DNA from: Algoriphagus aquaeductus
Lineage (GTDB): Bacteria > Bacteroidota > Bacteroidia > Cytophagales > Cyclobacteriaceae
Direction: 5' to 3'
Length of the DNA: 64,000 nucleotides
Assembly: GCF_003253485.1 (NCBI RefSeq)
Contig: NZ_QKTX01000010.1
Location: forward strand, 1 to 64,000
Positions 7,366 through 17,426 of the stretch are shown one piece after another. Each line of letters begins with the position of its first letter. Within the stretch, counting starts at the first letter, position 1. Below the pieces are notes generated by a model. That model was not told the origin of the DNA. It did not search any database and worked only from the letters and a program-made list of their open reading frames with translations. The position numbers and the translations under genes are program-made.

Positions 7366-9489
7366 ATGAAGCAGATCATTCAAGACCTTAAAAACGGAGA
7401 TACCATTTTAGAAGAAGTACCAGCACCTTTGGTTAAGCCCGGTCAGGTATTGATTCAAACCACCCGTTCTTTAGTATCTCTGGGTACCGAACGAATGTTG
7501 GTGGAATTTGGTAAAGCTAATTTTTTGCAAAAAGCCCGTCAGCAGCCCGATAAGGTCAAAGAAGTCATTAATAAGGTGAAGACGGACGGCCTACAACCGA
7601 CCATTAATGCTGTTTTCAATAAATTGGGTCAACCACTACCGCTAGGCTATTGCAATGTTGGAAAAGTCATAGCCGTAGGAAAGGGAGTAGAAGACTTTTC
7701 AGCAGGTGATCGTGTTGCTTCTAATGGGTATCATGCTGAATACGTTTCTGTCCCCAAAAATCTAGTTGCGAAAATTCCGGATGGCGTTACTGATGAAGAG
7801 GCTGCCTTTACGGTTATAGGGGCTATAGGTCTTCAAGGTATACGTTTAGCAAACCCTACCTTTGGTGAGACAGTAGTTGTAGTTGGCTTGGGCTTGATTG
7901 GTTTGATTACTGCCCAGTTGCTGAAGGCCAATGGATGTCAGGTGATCGGTTTTGACTATGATTCCGCTAAGGTTGCTTTAGCTTCTTCCTTTGGAATTAC
8001 TGCGGTGAATCCGGGAGAGGGAATTGATCAAGTGGCTTTTGTGAAAAGTTTTACCCAAGGGGTGGGGGCGGATGCTGTTATTATCACGGCCTCCAATAAG
8101 AGCAATGAGATTATTTCCCAATCAGCCAAGATGTCCAGAAAGAAAGGACGGATTATCTTGGTTGGGGTAATAGGATTGGACATTTCCCGTGCAGACTTTT
8201 TTGAAAAGGAGTTGACTTTCCAGGTTTCTTGTTCCTACGGTCCTGGTCGCTACGATGAATCTTACGAGCAAAAAGGGCAGGATTATCCGCTACCTTATGT
8301 CCGTTGGACAGAAAAACGAAACTTCGAAGCCATTCTTCAAGCGCTTGCTTCCAAATCTATTCAGGTGGAACCATTGATTACCGAACGGGTTCCATTAGAT
8401 CAATATCAGCAGATCTACGGGGATATGAGCGGAAGCAAGTCTATCGCGAGTATTCTGGTTTATCCAGAGAAATCAGGAGAACCTCAGCGTTCAGTTTCTA
8501 TAGCTTCCAATGGCTTTCAAGCCGGAAAAGGGACAGTGGGAATCATCGGTGCTGGAAATTTCACTTCGGCCATGATTCTTCCCTGTCTGAAAAAGACTCC
8601 TGCCAAACTCAAATTTATCTCAAGTTCTGCTGGTCTATCCGGAACCACCTTGGCCAAGAAATTTGGAGTTGCTCAATCCACCACAGATAACGATCTTATT
8701 TTAAAGGATTCGGAAGTGGATCTCGTCATGGTGACGACTCGTCATAATGCACACGCTCGAATGGTGATTGATGCCCTCAAGGCTGGAAAGCATGTGTTTG
8801 TAGAGAAGCCTTTGGCATTGAATCAAGAAGAACTCGATGCAGTGGTGGAAGCCTATGTTGAATCTGGAAAAACGGTTTCAGTAGGTTTCAATAGGCGTTT
8901 CGCACCTTTGGCCATTCAAATGAAAAAGGCCTTGGGCTCCGGGAATACGCCCATGAATATTATAGCCACCATGAATGCGGGTATGATTCCTGCCAATGTA
9001 TGGGTGCACGACATGGAAGTAGGAGGGGGCAGGATCATCGGTGAGGCTTGCCACTTTATCGATTTGATCAGCTATTTAGCTGGTTCCAAAGTCAAGTCAG
9101 TATGTATGTCTTCGATGGGAATCAATCCTGAGGAAAATACCGACAATGCCACTATCCTTCTGAAATACGAGAATGGAACCAACGGAGTGATCAATTACTT
9201 TGCAAACGGATCAAAGGCTTATTCCAAGGAGAGAGTAGAAGTGTATCATCAAGAGCGTACCTTGATCATGGATAACTGGAGAAAATTGAAAGGTTTTGGA
9301 TTTAAGAATTTTAGTTCAGCTTCTTTTAATCAGGATAAAGGACATCAAAACCAGTTTAATCTATTGATTGATTCCATTCAGAAAGGTGGGAATGCGATTA
9401 TTCCGATGGATGATTTGGTGAATACGACCAAGGCTAGCTTTGCGGCAATTGAGAGTCTCAAAACCGGTGCTTGGGTGAGTGTAGATTAA
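7366..9489 (+). CDS. Bi-domain oxidoreductase (zinc-type alcohol dehydrogenase + Gfo/Idh/MocA)
   Basis: 707 residues made of two NAD(P)-binding enzymes in one chain. Residues about 1-365 are a medium-chain dehydrogenase with the dinucleotide-binding turn VVGLGLIGL near 172-180. Residues about 385-707 are a Gfo/Idh/MocA-type oxidoreductase with GIIGAGNF near 391 and the family EKP motif. Such fusions recur in polysaccharide loci next to heparinase-like and GT4 genes, as here, though the heparinase gene is separated by a 2.6-kb island. It is expected to oxidise or reduce a nucleotide- or lipid-linked sugar; substrate unknown. It is the last gene of the run that starts at 927. The intergenic repeat arrays start just after its stop codon. 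Confidence 0.85.
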   Translation: MKQIIQDLKNGDTILEEVPAPLVKPGQVLIQTTRSLVSLGTERMLVEFGKANFLQKARQQPDKVKEVINKVKTDGLQPTINAVFNKLGQPLPLGYCNVGKVIAVGKGVEDFSAGDRVASNGYHAEYVSVPKNLVAKIPDGVTDEEAAFTVIGAIGLQGIRLANPTFGETVVVVGLGLIGLITAQLLKANGCQVIGFDYDSAKVALASSFGITAVNPGEGIDQVAFVKSFTQGVGADAVIITASNKSNEIISQSAKMSRKKGRIILVGVIGLDISRADFFEKELTFQVSCSYGPGRYDESYEQKGQDYPLPYVRWTEKRNFEAILQALASKSIQVEPLITERVPLDQYQQIYGDMSGSKSIASILVYPEKSGEPQRSVSIASNGFQAGKGTVGIIGAGNFTSAMILPCLKKTPAKLKFISSSAGLSGTTLAKKFGVAQSTTDNDLILKDSEVDLVMVTTRHNAHARMVIDALKAGKHVFVEKPLALNQEELDAVVEAYVESGKTVSVGFNRRFAPLAIQMKKALGSGNTPMNIIATMNAGMIPANVWVHDMEVGGGRIIGEACHFIDLISYLAGSKVKSVCMSSMGINPEENTDNATILLKYENGTNGVINYFANGSKAYSKERVEVYHQERTLIMDNWRKLKGFGFKNFSSASFNQDKGHQNQFNLLIDSIQKGGNAIIPMDDLVNTTKASFAAIESLKTGAWVSVD

Positions 9490-9812
9490 TTGTTTCACGC
9501 AGAGATTGCAGAGAAAAAAGTTTCACGCGGCGAGCGCGGCGATTTGCGCTGCGCCCGCTGCGTGAAAAGTAAAAAGTAGCGCTCGCAGCGATAAAAAAAG
9601 AGTTCACGCGGCGCTCCCCGAGATTAACGCTGCGTGCGCTGCGAGAAACACAAAAAAATCACGCCGCGAGCGCTGCGATTTGCGCTGCGACCGCTGCGTG
9701 AATTAAAAACTCTCCGCGTTTCCTGCGATTTCCTTTGCGCTCGCCGCGTGAAAAGAAAAACCTTGCGCCGGCTGCGTGAAAAAAAAATCTTTGCGATCGC
9801 TGCGTGAAACAC
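9490..9812. repeat. Repeat array A: CGCNGCG-based inverted units
   Basis: The 323-base stretch has about eight units. The skeleton is TTCACGC-N-GCG-NN-CGC-N-GCG in one orientation and the reverse complement, ending GCTGCGTGAAA, in the other. Units are separated by A-rich runs of 5-10 bases. The palindromic heptamer CGCNGCG recurs every 9 bases inside a unit. Opposed units form long stems, the clearest at 9521-9541 with 9547-9567 (21 pairs, two of them G-T wobble, one mismatch, 5-base loop). Spacers are not uniform, so this is not CRISPR. The array runs up to the start of the GxxExxY gene. It is far more G+C-rich within its units than the neighbouring genes. Confidence 0.9.
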
Positions 9813-9826
9813 ATATTTTTATTTTT

Positions 9827-10204
9827 ATGACTGAGAATGAGATCGCTACCATCATTTTAGACAAATCTTTTGAGATTCATCGTACGCTTGGACCTGGACT
9901 TTTGGAATCAGTATATGAACAAGCACTCGAATACGAATTACGACAAGCAGGTTTGATGGTGGATGCTCAGCTGCCAGTACCCTTGGTTTACAAAGAAATC
10001 AAGTTTGAAGCTGGATTTAGGCTTGATCTCTTAGTGGAAAACAAAGTCATCGTCGAAGTCAAAGCAATCGAAACACTCGCTCCAGTCCACTTTGCCCAGA
10101 CCCTTACCTACCTGAAGCTCTCCGGCCACAAACTCGGACTGCTCCTAAATTTCAACACCAAATTGCTCAAAGACGGGATTCATCGTCTTGCAAACAATCT
10201 TTAA
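9827..10204 (+). CDS. GxxExxY protein, PD-(D/E)XK nuclease-like
   Basis: 125 residues from ATG 9827. The name-giving motif GLLESVY is at residues 24-30. The nuclease-like core has Asp67 (FRLDLLV) and then Glu77-Val-Lys79 (VIVEVKA), the D...ExK arrangement of the PD-(D/E)XK superfamily. The frame stays open upstream to a GTG at 9776, but those 17 residues (LRSLRE and so on) are translated from the repeat array, so ATG 9827 is preferred. Arrays of the same repeat lie on both sides, and the stop codon lies inside the left terminal inverted repeat of array B. Function is unknown in the family; DNA or RNA cleavage is only inferred from the fold. Confidence 0.85.
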   Translation: MTENEIATIILDKSFEIHRTLGPGLLESVYEQALEYELRQAGLMVDAQLPVPLVYKEIKFEAGFRLDLLVENKVIVEVKAIETLAPVHFAQTLTYLKLSGHKLGLLLNFNTKLLKDGIHRLANNL

Positions 10205-10539
10205 CTAGTTCACGCAGGAATAGGGTTCACGCAGAGAACGCGGTGATTAACGCGGTGCTCGCAACGAAAAATAAAATGGTTAACGTTGCGCCCGTTGCGA
10301 ATTACCGCTGTGCCCGCTGCGAGAAAGAAAAAACATTTTGGTCGTTGTAAGAAATTAGTTCACGCCGAGAACGCGGCGATTAACGCGGAGCTCGCAACGA
10401 AAAATTAAAAAGTTTTACGTGGCGCACGCTGCGATTATCGCTGCGACCGCTGCGTGAAAAAAAATCAAACTGAGCCCGCTGCGATAAAACTCTGCGTTAG
10501 CTGCGTGAAACCGTTGCGTTCGTTGCGTGAGCTAGTTAA
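10201..10539. repeat. Repeat array B with 15-bp terminal inverted repeats
   Basis: It carries the same CGCNGCG-type units as array A, in both orientations, with A-rich spacers. The outer ends match as inverted repeats: TTAACTAGTTCACGC (10201-10215) against GCGTGAGCTAGTTAA (10525-10539), 14 of 15 positions. Two internal units (10225-10275 and 10359-10408) are near-identical direct copies beginning GTTCACGC and ending in CTCGCAACGAAAAAT. Together with the following 68 bases it makes up the gap between the GxxExxY gene and the next gene. Confidence 0.85.
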
Positions 10540-10553
10540 AATACTAACATTTG
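10523..10553 (+). promoter_or_regulatory. Possible promoter of the accessory cassette
   Basis: TTG at 10523-10525, inside the last unit of array B, is followed after 19 bases by TAACATTTG (10545-10553). This resembles the Bacteroidota pair TTTG / TAnnTTTG with one extra base in the -7 element. The next start codon is 54 bases downstream. Confidence 0.25.
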
Positions 10554-10607
10554 TCATTGATTTTCCGTCAGATAGTTTCTAGTTTCCATTTTTAAATATC
10601 CTTACTT

Positions 10608-10913
10608 ATGCAAGATCCTGACCTAACAAAAGCTCAAAACCAAGCAGCAGCCTTAAACCAGCTCATTAATCTTGCTTTGGAATCTGAATCTATTCCCAAA
10701 ATTTATTGTAATGGCTTTACCAATGCAGTCGGAAATTCGGATGTGATGCTAGTGCTTCAGCAGAATGGAAAGCCTGCAGGTGTGGTCAATATGTCATTTA
10801 CGATTGCTAAGACACTAAGCCAATCTCTGAAAGAAATCATCGACTCGATTGAACAAAAATCTAATCAGTCCATTATGACCACTTATGAAGTAGAAAAATT
10901 CCTTAAACCATGA
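10608..10913 (+). CDS. Small DUF3467-like protein
   Basis: 101 residues, no signal peptide. After an Ala/Gln/Leu-rich helix (residues 5-25) comes a beta-rich part (IYCNGFTNAVGNSDVMLVLQ), then VVNMSFTIAKTLSQSL near residues 65-80. This resembles DUF3467 proteins, in which a strand is followed by an MSP-x-x-AK helix. That similarity is from memory and weak. It is the first gene of a cassette enclosed by arrays B and C and overlaps the next gene by 4 bases (ATGA). No function can be assigned. Confidence 0.6.
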   Translation: MQDPDLTKAQNQAAALNQLINLALESESIPKIYCNGFTNAVGNSDVMLVLQQNGKPAGVVNMSFTIAKTLSQSLKEIIDSIEQKSNQSIMTTYEVEKFLKP

Positions 10914-11563
10914 TCTCAAAAGGAACAGTCTTGTATTCAGGTTACCAAGCGGAAAAGGAAAAGCTAGCTGGAAACCTCATGGATATCCTACAGAAAATCA
11001 AGTCCTTTAGCACATTAGGAAAGGGATGGCATTATGGAGAGGGACAGGGGCCAAGTCTTGCAACCCTTGGGTTAGCTGAGAGGATTGCCAAGCGACTTCA
11101 TCTGGAGCTATTTTGTAAAATAGATGCATTCCCGGGTATCTGGGGAGAAATTCAAGTCACAGCCTATCTTCAAGAGTATTTTATTGAAATTAATATCTTG
11201 TCAGATGGCTCCATTGAATTTTTAGTAGAAGATCAAAACCAAAATATAGTTTTAGAATTAGAAGGATTAAATTTTGATGGACTAGTAACTAAAATCAAGT
11301 TTTTTAAGGGTCAATATCTATGGAAATCATTCGTGTACTTTCCCCAAACCATTTCGATAAAAACCTATCCAGATTCTCCAGTCTTGCCTTCAGGAATTCT
11401 TCTGGTCCAAGAGGAGGAATCTCCGTATTTGACCGAGATTGCGCACAGCGAAACTCAGGCAGCCCATGTAGCCATATTGACTCCCATTACCAAAAGATCA
11501 GCTATCAACCCCCGATATTTTGGAAATTCAGTTCAGACCAACTACCAAATCATCCCAAGCTAG
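10910..11563 (+). CDS. Unknown protein with a GWHYGEG-type domain
   Basis: 217 residues, no signal peptide or membrane segment. An N-terminal helix is followed by LGKGWHYGEGQGPS near residues 38-51, a helix, then WGEIQVTAYLQEYFIEINILSDGSIEF near 80-107 (the quoted part covers strands ending in DG-x-IEF). The pattern resembles small bacterial proteins with a GWDG-x-PSP helix followed by a strand pair, a group often found in variable gene cassettes. The C-terminal 80 residues look different. It overlaps the DUF3467-like gene by 4 bases, so the two are translationally coupled. The frame after its stop remains open in another register for 59 codons, so either a small third gene follows or the protein was once longer. 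Confidence 0.65.
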   Translation: MISKGTVLYSGYQAEKEKLAGNLMDILQKIKSFSTLGKGWHYGEGQGPSLATLGLAERIAKRLHLELFCKIDAFPGIWGEIQVTAYLQEYFIEINILSDGSIEFLVEDQNQNIVLELEGLNFDGLVTKIKFFKGQYLWKSFVYFPQTISIKTYPDSPVLPSGILLVQEEESPYLTEIAHSETQAAHVAILTPITKRSAINPRYFGNSVQTNYQIIPS

Positions 11564-11565
11564 AA

Positions 11566-11745
11566 TTGGATGATTCCAATGGGGATCCTTGCCATTATAA
11601 TATTTTTGATTTGACCGATAAAGAGGCGAAACGATTTTTTCAAGGTGAAGGTAATGGGGAGTATTTCATTTGTAAGGAAACTACGGAAGTAACAGTCAGC
11701 AAAGAATCCTTAAAGGAATTAATCTTGAAAGGCTTTTTCGATTAA
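11566..11745 (+). CDS. Small 59-residue protein or frameshifted tail of the previous gene
   Basis: A TTG two bases after the previous stop opens a 59-codon frame beginning DDSNGDPCHYN, with an acidic, ordinary amino-acid make-up (FDLTDKEAKRFF, ESLKELILKGFF). The same frame is open further upstream to 11320, but that part is the shadow of the preceding gene. Coding character suggests real protein. It is either a third, tightly coupled gene of the cassette or the C-terminus of a protein split by a frameshift near 11520-11560. Array C starts within a few bases of its stop. Confidence 0.4.
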   Translation: MDDSNGDPCHYNIFDLTDKEAKRFFQGEGNGEYFICKETTEVTVSKESLKELILKGFFD

Positions 11746-11747
11746 AG

Positions 11748-12114
11748 GGTTCACGCAGTGCTCGCAAAGATTTACGCGGCGTTCGCGGCGAGAAATTGGT
11801 TCACGCTGCGTTTGCTGCGACTTCCGTTGCGCCCGCTGCGAGAAATCCAAAGCCGTTGCGTCCGCTGCGTGAAATTATAAACCACTGCTCCCGCTGCGTG
11901 AAAACTCTGCGCTCGCTGCGAATAACAGCTGCTTCCGTCGCGTGAAAATGGTTAACGAAAAGATCGCTTCAAATAACGCGGCGTCCGCTGCGAGAAATAA
12001 AAAGCCACTGCATCCGCTGCGAGAAAACTCTGCGTTCGCCGCGTGAAATAAAAATTACACCTCGTCCGCTGCGTGAAATAAAAAACACTGCGCTCGCTGC
12101 GAGAAATCCAATCC
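11748..12114. repeat. Repeat array C: CGCNGCG-type units
   Basis: About 367 bases of the same repeat family as arrays A and B. The first third has TTCACGC-leading units (11750, 11800). The rest is a run of units in one orientation ending CGCTGCGTGAAA or CGCTGCGAGAAA, spaced about 25-35 bases with A-rich joints. It fills the whole gap between the accessory cassette and the heparinase-like gene and ends only 9 bases before that start codon. Confidence 0.88.
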
Positions 12115-13698
12115 ATGCTCTCCAAGCTTAATACACTTTTTCACACCCTGATTCACCTCAAGCCCATTCAAGCCGTTTATCAGGTGAAAAACAGGCTAAT
12201 CAAAGTTAGCCCACTTTCAGCCTTTCAGTTACCAATCCCCCAAACTCAAAAACTTGATTTTTTTAAGGCTCCAGCAATCACCAGGTTTTTAAAGGTAAAA
12301 CCCGATCAATTCCATTTTGAGTTTTTAAACCTTTCTCAAACCTATTCGAAGTCCTCCATAGACTGGAACGACCAAACTCACGGCAAACTCTGGAATTACA
12401 ACCTTCAATATCTCGACTTTTTGAAACAGGAAGATGTTCCCATAGAAATCAAAATTGATATTCTAAGAGATATTTATTCTTGGCTTTTGGCTGGGAAACT
12501 CCCACTCGAGCCCTATCCAGCCTCCCTTCGAATCATGAATCTGATTCGTTTTTTTTCCACTCATTCCATGGATCAAGCCACAAAAGATGAATTGACCAGA
12601 TTCCTTTTTGCGGAGGTAAATTACCTATCTAAAAACCTGGAATTTCACTTGCTTGCTAATCACTTGCTCGAAAATGCCTTCGCTTTTTGGATGGGAGCCT
12701 TGTTTTTCAATCAGCCGGATTGGACCGCAAAGGCATCCAAGCTTTTAAAATCTCAATTGGAAGAACAGATTTTAGCCGATGGAGCCCATTACGAGCTTAC
12801 GCCCATGTATCATCAGATTATTCTGTTTAGAGTCATGGAGGCTTACTATCTAACCCCCAATCAATATGTTCTGAAATTTATCTTGAAAGAAAAGGCTGAA
12901 TTAATGATGGGTTGGCTTAATCTAATGACTTTTCCCAATGGTCAACTTCCACATTTTAACGATACCACAGAAGGGATTGCCTATGGTTCTGCATTTCTCC
13001 AAGAAACCGGGAGATCTTTAGATCTTCTTCCAAATTTCAAATCGCTTTCTGAATCCGGATACAGAAAATTGGAATTCGAAGATCTTTGTTTAATCTCAGA
13101 TGTAGAAGGGATCAAACCCAGTTATCAGCCTGGTCATGCTCATGCAGACACCTTTTCATTTGTCCTTCACAAGGGAGAAGTTCCAGTAATTGTTGATCCG
13201 GGAATTTCCACTTATACCATAGGCTCTCGAAGAGCTTGGGAGAGAGGGACCGCATCTCACAATACTATTACGATTGATCAGAAAAACTCTTCACATGTTT
13301 GGGCCGGTTTCAGAGTGGCCAAGCGGACAAAAGTTAACCTTAAGTCGGACAATTCTATCCATGTCCTTGCGTCTCAGGATGGCTTTGGGGGCCAACTTCA
13401 TCAACGCGAATTCAAAGTCCTCGGCCGAGGGCTTGAAATAAAAGATGAAATTTTAAACTACAATAATAATTCCATACTGGAAGCGAGGTTGTTTTTTCAT
13501 CCAGCTATCACACCCAAATTTATTTCGTCTGCGCGAATTCAACTCTTGGATAGCTTGATTTTGGAATTGTTTGGGGCAGAGCAAATCCAATTGATTCCTT
13601 ATGAATTTGCTTTGGGCTTCAACAAGCTAAAGTCAGCTCAGTGCCTGCTTATTTCTTTAGAAAGTAATTCACTCACAACCCGGTTTATACCAAGATAA
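12115..13698 (+). CDS. Heparinase II/III-like (alginate-lyase fold) protein
   Basis: 527 residues: an alpha-helical toroid N-terminal half (about 1-320) and a beta-sandwich C-terminal half. The C-terminal motif GHAHADTFSF has His341 and His343, and RGTASHNT carries His382. These are typical of the Hepar_II_III family. No signal peptide is visible, so it is probably cytoplasmic. Members in O-antigen loci are often found beside bi-domain oxidoreductases and WbuB-like glycosyltransferases, as here. Its role in assembly or trimming of the glycan is not established. It ends with a 1-base TAATG overlap into the GT4 gene, so these two are coupled. Confidence 0.85.
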   Translation: MLSKLNTLFHTLIHLKPIQAVYQVKNRLIKVSPLSAFQLPIPQTQKLDFFKAPAITRFLKVKPDQFHFEFLNLSQTYSKSSIDWNDQTHGKLWNYNLQYLDFLKQEDVPIEIKIDILRDIYSWLLAGKLPLEPYPASLRIMNLIRFFSTHSMDQATKDELTRFLFAEVNYLSKNLEFHLLANHLLENAFAFWMGALFFNQPDWTAKASKLLKSQLEEQILADGAHYELTPMYHQIILFRVMEAYYLTPNQYVLKFILKEKAELMMGWLNLMTFPNGQLPHFNDTTEGIAYGSAFLQETGRSLDLLPNFKSLSESGYRKLEFEDLCLISDVEGIKPSYQPGHAHADTFSFVLHKGEVPVIVDPGISTYTIGSRRAWERGTASHNTITIDQKNSSHVWAGFRVAKRTKVNLKSDNSIHVLASQDGFGGQLHQREFKVLGRGLEIKDEILNYNNNSILEARLFFHPAITPKFISSARIQLLDSLILELFGAEQIQLIPYEFALGFNKLKSAQCLLISLESNSLTTRFIPR

Positions 13699-14909: not shown

Positions 14910-16570
14910 TGAGAGGAATATTTTTATTGGTTTTTGTAGGAATTAATTTGAACCTTTCAGCGCAGGTAATACCGACTGGTTTTCCTATTTGGGAAGAGGT
15001 AATTCGCAGAAATCAGATATTAAACGAGGATTCCGCTTCAATTTCCTCCTTTTTACTCAGGCCCGGATTAATAATCACTAAGGATTACGGTTTTGGTCAA
15101 GAAATTTCTACGCCTGTGGAATCACTTGAGCTTGGCTTACTTCCCCTAGTGACAACGGCCCGAGTCACTTCCAAGCGTCCGTATGGTTGGGGTGATTATG
15201 GGATGATTCCCAATCCCGGACTGCAAACCTATTTTTCAGGAGGAATACAGGCGAAATATAAATTCATCAATTTCACCTTTCGACCCGAATTAGTCATCGC
15301 CCAGAATAAAGGGTTTGAAACTGATCTGGAAAACATGCGACTCAATGATATCCGTAGCCGCTTTTTTCTATGGAATTTTGGGGATTTCCCCGAAAGGTAT
15401 GGTGAGTCTTGGGTTATGTATCCTTGGTGGGGGCAATCCAAACTTACCTTTCAATATGGTTCCTTTGAAATAGGAGGAAGTACTCAAAATATTTGGTGGG
15501 GTCCTGGTCAGTGGAATGCGCTTACCTTTTCCAATAATGCCCAAGGATTCCCTCATCTAACCTTGAATACGACCAAGCCAGCCAAAACTTTTTTGGGAAA
15601 TTTTGAAACCCAATTGATTGTAGGAAGACTTGAAAATTCAGGTGTTCCTCCTTCTCAGGTTTCTGATTTGAATGATCGCTTTTTCAGGCCGTTTACCGGG
15701 GATTGGCGATATCTAAATGCCATCACCTTGAGTTGGAATCCCAAATGGATAAAGGGGTTTTATTTTGGCTTTTCCAGAACTTTCCAGCAATATAATACCA
15801 ATAGGGGTAGGGAGTTTTCAGACTGGTTTCCCATTTTTGATCCCTTTCAGAAAGAGCGGTTCTTTTCAGATGGCAATTCTGTCGAATTTGATGCAAATGG
15901 AAGAGATCAAACTGTTACCATTTTTGGAAGATTAGTGTTGCCTCAAACCAAATCCGAAGTTTATTTTGAATATGGCAGGAGAGATCATGCTTTTAACTGG
16001 AAGGATTTTGTTTTAAATCCCGAACATGCAAGAGCCTTCCTATTTGGGTACAAACAGCTGTTTGAACTGCCAAATGGGAATCAATTGATCCAAATCAGAT
16101 CAGAAATCACCCATCAACAAGAATCAGTTAATCGGTATATCCGAAATAACGGTATCGAAGGTGGATTGTCATGGCACACCCACACGAGGGCCCGTGGATT
16201 CGTGAATTATGGACAGCCTTTAGGCGTGGGCATAGGCACTGGCTCAAATGTACAAACCGTGGAGGTTTCCTTGGTGGAAGGAGTAAATAAAATGGGACTT
16301 CTTTTTGAGCGATTGGCCAATAACCAGGATTTTTACTATAAGGCACTATTTCAGTTTACCGAACGTCGGCCTTGGATTGACTATTCTCTTGGCTTCCTCT
16401 ACGACAAGCAGTTCAATAACCTGCTCCTTAGCTCCAAGCTTCAGTTGATTCATGCCCGCAATTACCAGTGGCAGCTGCATCCATCGAGCACCCCGGAGTT
16501 TCCCAGAGGGCAGAACCTGACCAGTGTGATGGCCCAGGTGAGTGCGATTTACTTTTGGAAGAAGAAGTGA
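14909..16570 (+). CDS. Wzi-like capsule assembly outer-membrane protein
   Basis: 553 residues from ATG 14909 (TGATG coupling with the GT4 stop; a TTG at 14906 is in frame but less likely). The N-terminal signal peptide ends near NLSAQ (residues 1-19). The rest alternates aromatic and polar residues in beta strands typical of an outer-membrane barrel. Repeated W/G-rich turns (YPWWGQ, NIWWGPGQWNAL) match the Capsule_assemb_Wzi family. Wzi holds capsule at the cell surface by acting as an outer-membrane lectin. It closes this transcription unit and is followed by repeats. Confidence 0.8.
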   Translation: MRGIFLLVFVGINLNLSAQVIPTGFPIWEEVIRRNQILNEDSASISSFLLRPGLIITKDYGFGQEISTPVESLELGLLPLVTTARVTSKRPYGWGDYGMIPNPGLQTYFSGGIQAKYKFINFTFRPELVIAQNKGFETDLENMRLNDIRSRFFLWNFGDFPERYGESWVMYPWWGQSKLTFQYGSFEIGGSTQNIWWGPGQWNALTFSNNAQGFPHLTLNTTKPAKTFLGNFETQLIVGRLENSGVPPSQVSDLNDRFFRPFTGDWRYLNAITLSWNPKWIKGFYFGFSRTFQQYNTNRGREFSDWFPIFDPFQKERFFSDGNSVEFDANGRDQTVTIFGRLVLPQTKSEVYFEYGRRDHAFNWKDFVLNPEHARAFLFGYKQLFELPNGNQLIQIRSEITHQQESVNRYIRNNGIEGGLSWHTHTRARGFVNYGQPLGVGIGTGSNVQTVEVSLVEGVNKMGLLFERLANNQDFYYKALFQFTERRPWIDYSLGFLYDKQFNNLLLSSKLQLIHARNYQWQLHPSSTPEFPRGQNLTSVMAQVSAIYFWKKK

Positions 16571-16975
16571 CCGTCATTGCGAGGTGACGTCATTGCGAGG
16601 GTAGGGTAGTGACAATCGGTTAGGTACTTCTATGGCCTACCCGAAGCAATTTTGACTGATAAAAGCCTAAGATCGCTTCGTCGCAGTTAGCTTCTTTAAT
16701 AAATTTTAAGCGTCATTTTGCTTCTCGCGATGACGTGATTTCTCCTCGCGACGACGCTTTTCGTCATTGCGAAGGAAGAGCAGATTCAAAATAATTTCTA
16801 TGAGAAGCCTACCTTCCCGAAGCAATCTCATCCAGTTGCCAGGATCGCTTCGTCGCAGTTAGCTTCTTTAATAAATTTTAAGCGTCATTTTGCTTCTCGC
16901 GATGACGTGATTTCTCCTCGCGACGACGCTTTTCGTCATTGCGAGGGAAGAGCAGGATCAAAATAATTTCTAGGA
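16571..16975. repeat. CGTCATTGCGAG-type interspersed repeats in a 172-bp tandem
   Basis: GTCATTGCGAGG occurs near 16573 and 16588. A 130-base block (16671-16800) recurs at 16843-16972 with about three mismatches, a 172-base period. Each block has GATCGCTTCGTCGC, a spacer, then CTTCTCGCGATGACG, later CGTCATTGCGA and GAAGCAATCT. These are the arms of the widespread CGTCATTGCGAGG / AAGCAATCT inverted element. No open frame of coding quality is present. Confidence 0.85.
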
Positions 16976-17426
16976 GTGCCTACCTTCCTGAAGCTCGTGC
17001 ATAGTCATCTTCCCTGAAAATTGATCCTTGCGTTTGGGATTTGATACCTGACTTCCCTTATTTACCTCATACTCCCCACCTCCAAAATTCCCATACGCCC
17101 AAGTCGCAGACTTAGAGATTCTCTTCGGAATTTGTAGGCATTACTACTAAAAAAAATCCAGACTTTGGGATTTTTTTCGACGCTTTGGGTAGCGTTTCCC
17201 CGGATTCCCACGTTAACTTTGTAGGAATAGAAAAAAAACAAAAAAATCTTCAAATACTCTAAATTGTAATTCGGCAATACAAATTTTAAATTGATGGGGA
17301 ATTAGGATTATTTTAAAACTTTTCAATTGCCATCCCTTGAAATTAATTTCTTGCTAAAAATTAGGCATAATAATTGTAAAAACTTAAATTCGAAAACCAT
17401 TCTTATTCTTTGATAACTACCACATT
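16976..17426. other. Non-coding stretch before the WecA-like gene
   Basis: No gene is seen. At 17150-17177 there is a symmetrical hairpin (A7-TCC, 8-base loop, GGA-T7) that could end transcription from both sides. A short stem ACGCT/AGCGT follows at 17180-17195. The last 150 bases are A+T-rich and probably hold the promoter of the next gene, but no clear TAnnTTTG is present. Confidence 0.6.
17150..17177. terminator. Symmetrical terminator-like hairpin
   Basis: AAAAAAATCC (17150-17159) pairs with GGATTTTTTT (17168-17177) around an 8-base loop. The stem has only three G-C-type pairs, so strength is doubtful, but the T-run is present on both strands. Confidence 0.45.

Follow-up and report, generated by a model that had tools for sequence, protein, structure and literature searches.

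The window analysed here is a 64,000-nt stretch of Algoriphagus aquaeductus contig NZ_QKTX01000010.1 (assembly GCF_003253485.1, hereafter the own genome; loci, genomes and contigs carry L, G and C numbers), and its subject is an island at 9490-12114 in which three arrays of CGCnGCG words surround a gene of the GxxExxY family and a cassette of three open reading frames (ORFs). We consider it somewhat probable that this locus is one member of a two-part system resembling repetitive extragenic palindromic (REP) sequences, made up of a GxxExxY gene and of palindromic units that carry a word recognised by the clade of the encoded protein.

The initial annotation had placed the arrays at 9490-9812, 10201-10539 and 11748-12114, and both these coordinates and the enrichment of the word over shuffled sequence held. 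Arrays 1, 2 and 3 (no strand assigned) contain 14, 6 and 13 CGCnGCG copies, compared with means of 1.3, 0.7 and 1.0 and maxima of 5, 4 and 6 in 300 dinucleotide shuffles. A single further copy lies in the remaining 61.4 kb of the window, and none was found inside the GxxExxY gene or the cassette. The longer skeleton TTCACGC-N-GCG-NN-CGC-N-GCG was matched at 29 places of the 64 kb window with at most two mismatches, on both strands and always within 9490-12114. The units had also been described as nearly invariant: they are strongly conserved, but only four copies of the skeleton are exact. Across the whole own genome, all 12 strict-pattern matches fall inside the island, and a reversed control pattern gave none.

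When a tolerant word pattern was used, a 9-12-9 run of spacings was seen six times (2, 3 and 1 in arrays 1, 2 and 3) among other spacings. This run corresponds to a hairpin of about 46 bp, laid out as word-2-word-5-word-2-word with a 5-base loop. The best hairpin unit, at 9521-9567 (no strand assigned), holds four words face to face and the exact skeleton on both strands; folded as single-stranded DNA, 9519-9567 is also the clearest unit (-23.8 kcal/mol, z -5.27). A second clear hairpin unit lies at 9658-9702 (no strand assigned; -17.2 kcal/mol, z -3.92 for the fold of 9659-9702), and array 1 as a whole reaches -88.8 kcal/mol versus -65.1 for shuffles (z -5.83). Eight stretches were folded singly, and two more joined these units at z of -2 or below (-3.03 and -2.04), the other four lying above that value (-1.17, -0.64, -0.27 and +0.52). 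The three arrays are direct copies of one another, with match scores of 92-116 direct versus 29-38 inverted (array 2 to array 1, 92 versus 34; array 3 to array 2, 116 versus 29), and the cassette, like the GxxExxY gene, therefore lies between array copies. A reading as an array of clustered regularly interspaced short palindromic repeats (CRISPR), which consists of identical repeats and unique spacers of about 25-40 nt plus cas genes, was rejected, since the words stand 9 and 12 bp apart within palindromic units and no repeat-spacer layout is present. Pfam likewise identified no cas gene among the six ORFs at 7366-13698.

The gene between arrays 1 and 2 (9827-10204, + strand) had been described as a GxxExxY PD-(D/E)XK-like gene, an assignment borne out for the family by score and made likely for the fold by a predicted model. 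Its 125-aa product scores 144 bits to TIGR04256, for which the curated cut-off is 35, and is hence a full member of GxxExxY, a family named by its motif only; it scores 136.7 bits to PF13366. PDDEXK_3/GxxExxY was the sole match of the protein at an E value of 1 in Pfam and NCBIfam, and no further domain was found in the 125 residues. The model (pLDDT 95.2) is predicted to adopt the PD-(D/E)XK fold with D67, E77 and K79 at the D...ExK positions. D67 and E77 are invariant across 75 aligned proteins and K79 is found in 90% or more, a degree of conservation that suggests, from sequence, that catalysis has been kept. A sequence search against solved structures in the PDB gave no significant match. 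Identity to Cas4-like (SSO0001, which we take to be Cas4-like) and Holliday-junction-resolvase-like PD-(D/E)XK nucleases is 17% and 14%, and the lack of a further domain also sets the window protein apart.

The words flanking GxxExxY genes follow the protein clade at unrelated sites. After 420 of 21,528 locus pairs had been dropped for shared flanks, a repeated word was shared by 5% of pairs below 35% protein identity, by 31% at 60-70% and by 49% above 70%. A Mantel-type Spearman coefficient for repeated words reached 0.238 with 6-mers and 0.216 with 5-mers, compared with a standard deviation of 0.023 and a maximum of 0.071 in 200 permutations; the same measures were 0.004 and 0.019 in flanks at 300-500 bp. 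The repeated-word version was chosen, as the sharper one, after an earlier and weaker test on all 6-mers (Spearman 0.113, permutation standard deviation 0.023). On a protein tree of 171 loci, shared sites included, word class changes 12 times versus at least 42 times in 200 shuffles. Among 80 loci sharing no flanking DNA, 11 changes are needed (mean 23.1 and minimum 19 in 200 shuffles), and the 59 of these that are less than 70% identical need 10 (mean 18.3, minimum 15). The word classes were written after the flanks had been inspected, and the tree test was to that extent not blind; the Mantel test was, both it and the 7-mer count given below being class-free. One call, at L137, seems wrong (called TTAAG, with flanks of the CGCAAAG type). 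At ten orthologous argS loci, the left and right flanks of the same locus match each other slightly better than those of different loci (mean 16.0 versus 13.2, permutation p 0.012), a weak signal in which the cognate flank is best in two of ten rows.

Within the clade of the window protein (at least 75% identity), the doublet CGCnGCG-NN-CGCnGCG was found within 350 bp of the gene at seven of eight loci, compared with 0 of 242 others. The 7/8 count is biased, as L375 and L396 were obtained by searching for the pattern itself and L403, L404 and L410 from pattern-holding genomes, some of these three having been picked where pattern and gene adjoined. Among the three loci found otherwise, the window and Cecembia L074 carry the doublet; Mongoliibacter L073 (83% identical) lacks it and is flanked by the variants CGCAACG and CGCTACG. 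Against sampling bias alone, other GxxExxY loci of the same pattern-holding genomes are among the 242 without the doublet. The initial annotation had spoken of a gene embedded in its own repeat, and the pairing of gene and repeat stands; the repeats are, however, not tied to the surroundings of the gene, with solo units found elsewhere.

Flanking words are also a feature of the family at large, which has members in 61 of the 72 genus genomes and in 66 of the 98 genomes of the taxonomic family, with up to 15 in one genome among the matches listed. In 300-bp flanks, the left side matches the inverted right side above the 99% shuffle level at 79 of 122 loci, compared with 20 of 211 control ORFs (150 aa or more, listed mechanically at these loci) and with 7% for mismatched pairs. 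Direct left-right matches exceed the threshold at 47 of the 122. A 7-mer repeated at least four times was found within 200 bp of the gene at 105 of 204 loci versus 8 of 204 at 500-700 bp, and a word class could be called near the gene at 171 of 208 loci versus 28 of 208 further out. A cross-phylum sample comprised 80 named loci from many phyla, 67 of them with enough flank for word-class calls. Classes were called in 30 of 38 Bacteroidota, 4 of 4 Cyanobacteriota, 3 of 3 Ignavibacteriota, 2 of 4 Planctomycetota, 1 of 3 Thermodesulfobacteriota, 1 of 5 Acidobacteriota and 10 of 10 single-record groups, the last being weak calls given the far-flank rate, with the single Actinomycetota record perhaps from a misbinned contig. 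Quasi-repeats beside GxxExxY genes of other phyla, which the initial annotation had mentioned, are thus seen as word calls across about a dozen bacterial phyla, mostly at one locus each. The curators' note to TIGR04256 reportedly mentions quasi-repeats near members, so the bare association of GxxExxY genes with repeats may already be known.

Several vocabularies coexist in the own genome. Nine PF13366 matches were found, two of them with a stop codon, and clear flanking words could be read by eye at seven of the nine, in six vocabularies: CGCnGCG in the window, CRCnGAG at L001, CACATAG at L002, CACAGAT/CACGGAT at the tandem pair L003 and L006, a GGATT type at L007 and CACAAAG at the broken L008. 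L005 and the ninth match, at C2:216.6 kb, have low flank scores; the tree neighbours of L005 carry TTAAG words, and similar words are readable beside it. Five other own proteins that were aligned are 36-54% identical to the window protein, and no near-identical copies of the family were found in the own genome beyond the tandem pair. A tandem of two GxxExxY genes that are almost the same lies at L289 (own C2, about 304.9-306.0 kb), and each of the two has nearly identical hairpins on either side.

Units also occur without a gene. A scan of 859,520 bp of the own genome with word patterns revealed palindromic solo units of several GxxExxY vocabularies, each separated from the nearest GxxExxY gene by 6 kb or more: CACATAG at C11:158.1-158.3 kb, CACAGAT at C2:134.7 kb, CACAAAG at C2:188.7 kb, TTAAG at C2:160.4 kb, C2:166.2 kb and C10:73.7 kb, and a CGCAAAG hairpin at C16:70.1 kb. 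Some far matches of the loosest pattern are without a palindrome and look chance-like. Genomes having any strict-pattern match hold 1 to 28 copies, degenerate copies being outside this count.

The presence of words goes with the presence of the gene. Sequence ACCACATAGNCACATAG (CACATAG words) was found in 19 of 20 genus genomes with an L002-clade gene (at least 61% identity), in 22 of 41 whose GxxExxY genes all fall outside this clade and in 1 of 11 that have no such gene. These proportions differ for 19/20 versus 23/52 without the L002 clade (p 5e-5) and for 22/41 versus 1/11 (p 0.014), in statistics that ignore genome kinship and with several of the gene-less genomes incomplete. The initial annotation had held that the same repeats in many genomes lacking the gene would speak against a link, and this was observed in part, CACATAG words being present in the 23 of 52 genomes without the L002 clade. 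Words in genomes without the matching clade are what REP-like dispersal would give.

For the window's own word, the 71 other genomes of the genus give two strict CGC matches in total, and the 3-kb locus around each contains no word pair and no GxxExxY gene. In the taxonomic family, the strict CGC doublet was found in 20 of 295 genomes (reversed control 0), including 10 of 66 with a known GxxExxY gene versus 0 of 32 known to be without one (p 0.028). The majority of these doublet matches are units standing alone. Thirty CGC-doublet loci were inspected: two are the window, two others have a GxxExxY gene (82% and 83% identical) and 26 have none. By hand count against a gene listing for 98 of the 295 family genomes, a GxxExxY gene stands no more than about 250 bp from at least 6 of the 89 listed pattern places that are not in the window. 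By eye, many CGC solo units are enclosed in a larger inverted element, itself conserved, whose arms read for instance AAATGACAAA and TTTGTCATT. An element of the form AAATGACAAA ... TTTGTCATT around CGC hairpins was likewise read by eye at L376, L378, L388, L389, L391, L393, L394, L395 and L401, in several genera, as a family resembling miniature inverted-repeat transposable elements (MITEs).

The same site in three relatives shows the gene and its arrays in different states. The two genes flanking the island, which the initial annotation had taken to be normally adjacent, do stand in the same order in G056, G060 and G004. To the left is a fusion of zinc-dehydrogenase and GFO/IDH/MocA oxidoreductase domains (7366-9489, + strand; Pfam), with orthologues 85-95% identical at the same site over the parts contained in the G004, G056 and G060 sequences; to the right is a heparinase II/III family protein (12115-13698, + strand; Pfam), with 56-70% identical orthologues in the same three genomes. 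G056, which belongs to another genus, has arrays on either side of a GxxExxY gene 94% identical to that of the window; its left and right arrays are direct copies, and the cassette is absent. G060 has one array and no GxxExxY gene, and this array reads as a patchwork of G056's left and right arrays, as expected if the gene was removed by recombination between array copies, the reverse order also being possible. G004 holds a methyltransferase gene (Pfam) and, by eye, a decayed array relic between its flanking genes (95% and 70% identical).

Since gene and arrays stand without it at the G056 site, and ORF B was found in 1 of 291 genomes of the order, the own genome alone, the cassette lies outside the core and is probably cargo; a role as part of the core was rejected on these grounds, and no plasmid matches were found for it. 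Its three overlapping ORFs, like the neighbouring genes, are as first described. ORF A (10608-10913, + strand), probable cargo, is weakly DUF3467-like (E 0.0051, 17.3 bits, cut-off 25) and matches phrog_7919 (E 2.5e-4). ORF B (10910-11563, + strand), also probable cargo, weakly resembles the PADLOC candidate PDC-M32A (E 7.7e-4), with a partial match to model positions 261-366 of 384 only. ORF C (11320-11745, + strand) shares 244 bases with ORF B, from which it differs in frame, and has no family match at an E value of 1. The whole cassette (10608-11745) is possibly a rare defence-type cargo, its matches to DUF3467, phrog_7919 and PDC-M32A all being weak. Elsewhere in the window, a different quasi-repeat lies at 16567-16994, with GTCATTGCGAGG / CGTCATTGCGA words in a 172-bp unit (1.9 copies, 95%); no GxxExxY gene adjoins it, the contig's only PF13366 match being the window's own.

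Changes at other sites were read against G159, a genome whose ArgS is 95% identical to that of the own genome. Fourteen sites were tried, of which five could be placed on one side at most and one was placed with its sides too far apart for comparison. At the L003 site, the own genome has two genes and three hairpins with CACAGAT/CACGGAT words, and in G159 one hairpin stands there, both of its arms carrying CGCAGAT-type words. At one site a TTAAG unit stands opposite a TTACGATTT-type unit, and a CACATAG cluster differs in unit number. For L001 and L002, the positions in the two genomes agree. According to ARAGORN, a tRNA-Gly gene enclosed by inverted CACAAAG-type words has opposite orientations in the own genome and G159 with respect to the adjacent tRNA-Val (L283 12120-12193, own C2 about 192.1 kb; L320 5238-5313, G159 C23 about 125.2 kb). 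Of the 30 genus loci read at argS (L153-L182, the 30 closest of 59 genomes searched), 12 have a GxxExxY gene, intact or broken, ahead of argS; the other 18 are without one, and 5 of these keep one relic flank by eye. A GxxExxY gene also stands, by eye, before an argS-like start at L078 (Cyclobacteriaceae bacterium) and L082 (Bacteroidetes bacterium).

In the proposed mechanism, the first part would be the small PD-(D/E)XK protein encoded by the GxxExxY gene and the second the palindromic units with their short clade-specific word, which for the window clade would be CGCnGCG, doubled across a gap of 2 bp, with two such pairs opposed to form a hairpin. The protein would bind its word as double strand or hairpin and cut at or beside the units; repair of the cuts would then copy units locally, making arrays grow, and elsewhere, keeping the words alike. 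We infer both the cleavage and the movement of units. Recombination between direct array copies may delete the gene, giving the arrangement seen in G060, or retain additional DNA, the cassette for example, and the gene itself would mostly stay at fixed sites and move rarely. No clean insertion junction or target duplication was found at the sites compared between the own genome and G159 or at the argS site, though gain, loss and rearrangement are all seen there. A search for empty sites through alignment gaps between the own genome and G159 gave ten candidates, two with at least four words and neither a clean unit insertion.

Other explanations account for parts of these data. The locus could be a compact autonomous mobile element, whose palindromic flanks are its ends and whose nuclease moves gene and ends together. 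The matching flanks at 79 of 122 loci, the up to 15 members per genome among the matches listed and the tandem near-identical copies with hairpins at own C2:304.9-306.0 kb would fit this. The divergence of the other own proteins, with near-identical copies only in the tandem pair, speaks against a recent burst, however, and the shared positions of L001 and L002 in G159, like the gene before argS at 12 of 30 genus loci, count against it as well; moreover, no target duplication was seen and the window arrays are direct copies. We therefore regard a mobile element of this kind as unlikely. Operators, bound by a GxxExxY protein that uses its nuclease fold only for binding and so controls itself and a regulon, would also account for words placed immediately upstream and for their agreement with the protein clade. 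Yet the words are found downstream too, in inverted orientation, and solo units occur in the spaces between other genes and on either side of a tRNA gene; together with the invariance of D67 and E77 and the near-invariance of K79 over 75 proteins, this leaves the operator reading quite unlikely.

Replication slippage or template switching in quasi-palindromes might instead make the repeats, the gene being a passenger that survives there. This would explain why both hairpin arms differ together at one site (CACAGAT in the own genome, CGCAGAT type in G159), why array copies are alike within a locus and why the tRNA-Gly segment between inverted words is flipped between the two genomes, but it predicts neither the match of word and clade at unrelated sites nor the weakness of the signal in far flanks and around other ORFs, and we judge it very unlikely. 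Finally, units could be moved by REP-associated tyrosine transposases (RAYTs) of the same genome, GxxExxY genes merely sitting in REP clusters. The own genome does have eight RAYT-like Y1_Tnp matches (L364-L371), away from the window gene, and pairing of RAYTs with REPs is known (PMC2817692); the 200-bp flanks of these eight genes, however, hold one GxxExxY-type word in all and, by eye, other palindromes. RAYTs were rejected as the mover on this ground, and we hold such a role to be highly improbable. As an observation in its own right, most of L364-L371 adjoin ordinary short palindromes by eye, and two unrelated palindrome systems therefore coexist in the own genome.

The two-part reading was also compared with known systems. 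In the REP/RAYT literature, the RAYT gene is described as always flanked by two inverted REPs and as co-evolving with them, REP abundance being tied to its presence (PMC2817692), and RAYTs are described as single-copy, mutually distinct enzymes (PMC3116915). GxxExxY loci are similar in that divergent genes of one genome each stand beside their own palindrome, palindrome and protein co-evolve (Mantel 0.238 versus 0.071; 11 changes versus at least 19), palindromes are dispersed without the gene as well, and presence of the gene goes with presence of the palindrome. Inverted flanks are found at a majority of GxxExxY loci (79 of 122), and at the window units lie on both sides, with whole arrays as direct copies. 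Unlike RAYTs, the GxxExxY enzyme is a PD-(D/E)XK protein and not a Y1 HUH transposase, so the system is not a member of REP/RAYT; each arm of a GxxExxY unit holds at least two 7-bp words about 9 bp apart, and REPs usually exceed 100 copies per genome, compared with 1 to 28 for GxxExxY words by strict pattern. The units resemble MITEs in being short, palindromic and dispersed, and many CGC units lie within the longer inverted element noted above by eye, but no matching autonomous copy with target duplication was seen for GxxExxY units. In a library with few subscription papers, titles, abstract openings and GxxExxY passages gave no link between GxxExxY and repeats, and no paper on MITEs in Algoriphagus or Cyclobacterium was found there. 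Within the literature so covered, the present analysis adds the pairing of word with clade, the hairpin form of the unit and the dispersal of solo units.

More tentatively, and with less than even confidence, GxxExxY proteins might be the enzymes of a second, widespread REP-like class that is independent of RAYTs, with clade-specific 7-bp words at about one helical turn, spread and rewriting by cut and repair, and several vocabularies per genome. If true, the word differences on both arms at one site (CACAGAT versus CGCAGAT) would be the enzyme's own editing footprint. REP repeats and RAYTs are seen as a single, peculiar pairing that depends on one family of enzymes; an unrelated nuclease family keeping its own palindromes would make such a partnership a general route for the persistence of short repeats. 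Many small intergenic palindromes in Bacteroidota would then gain a likely source, and the clade-to-word pairing would offer natural enzyme-target pairs for reading a DNA recognition code.

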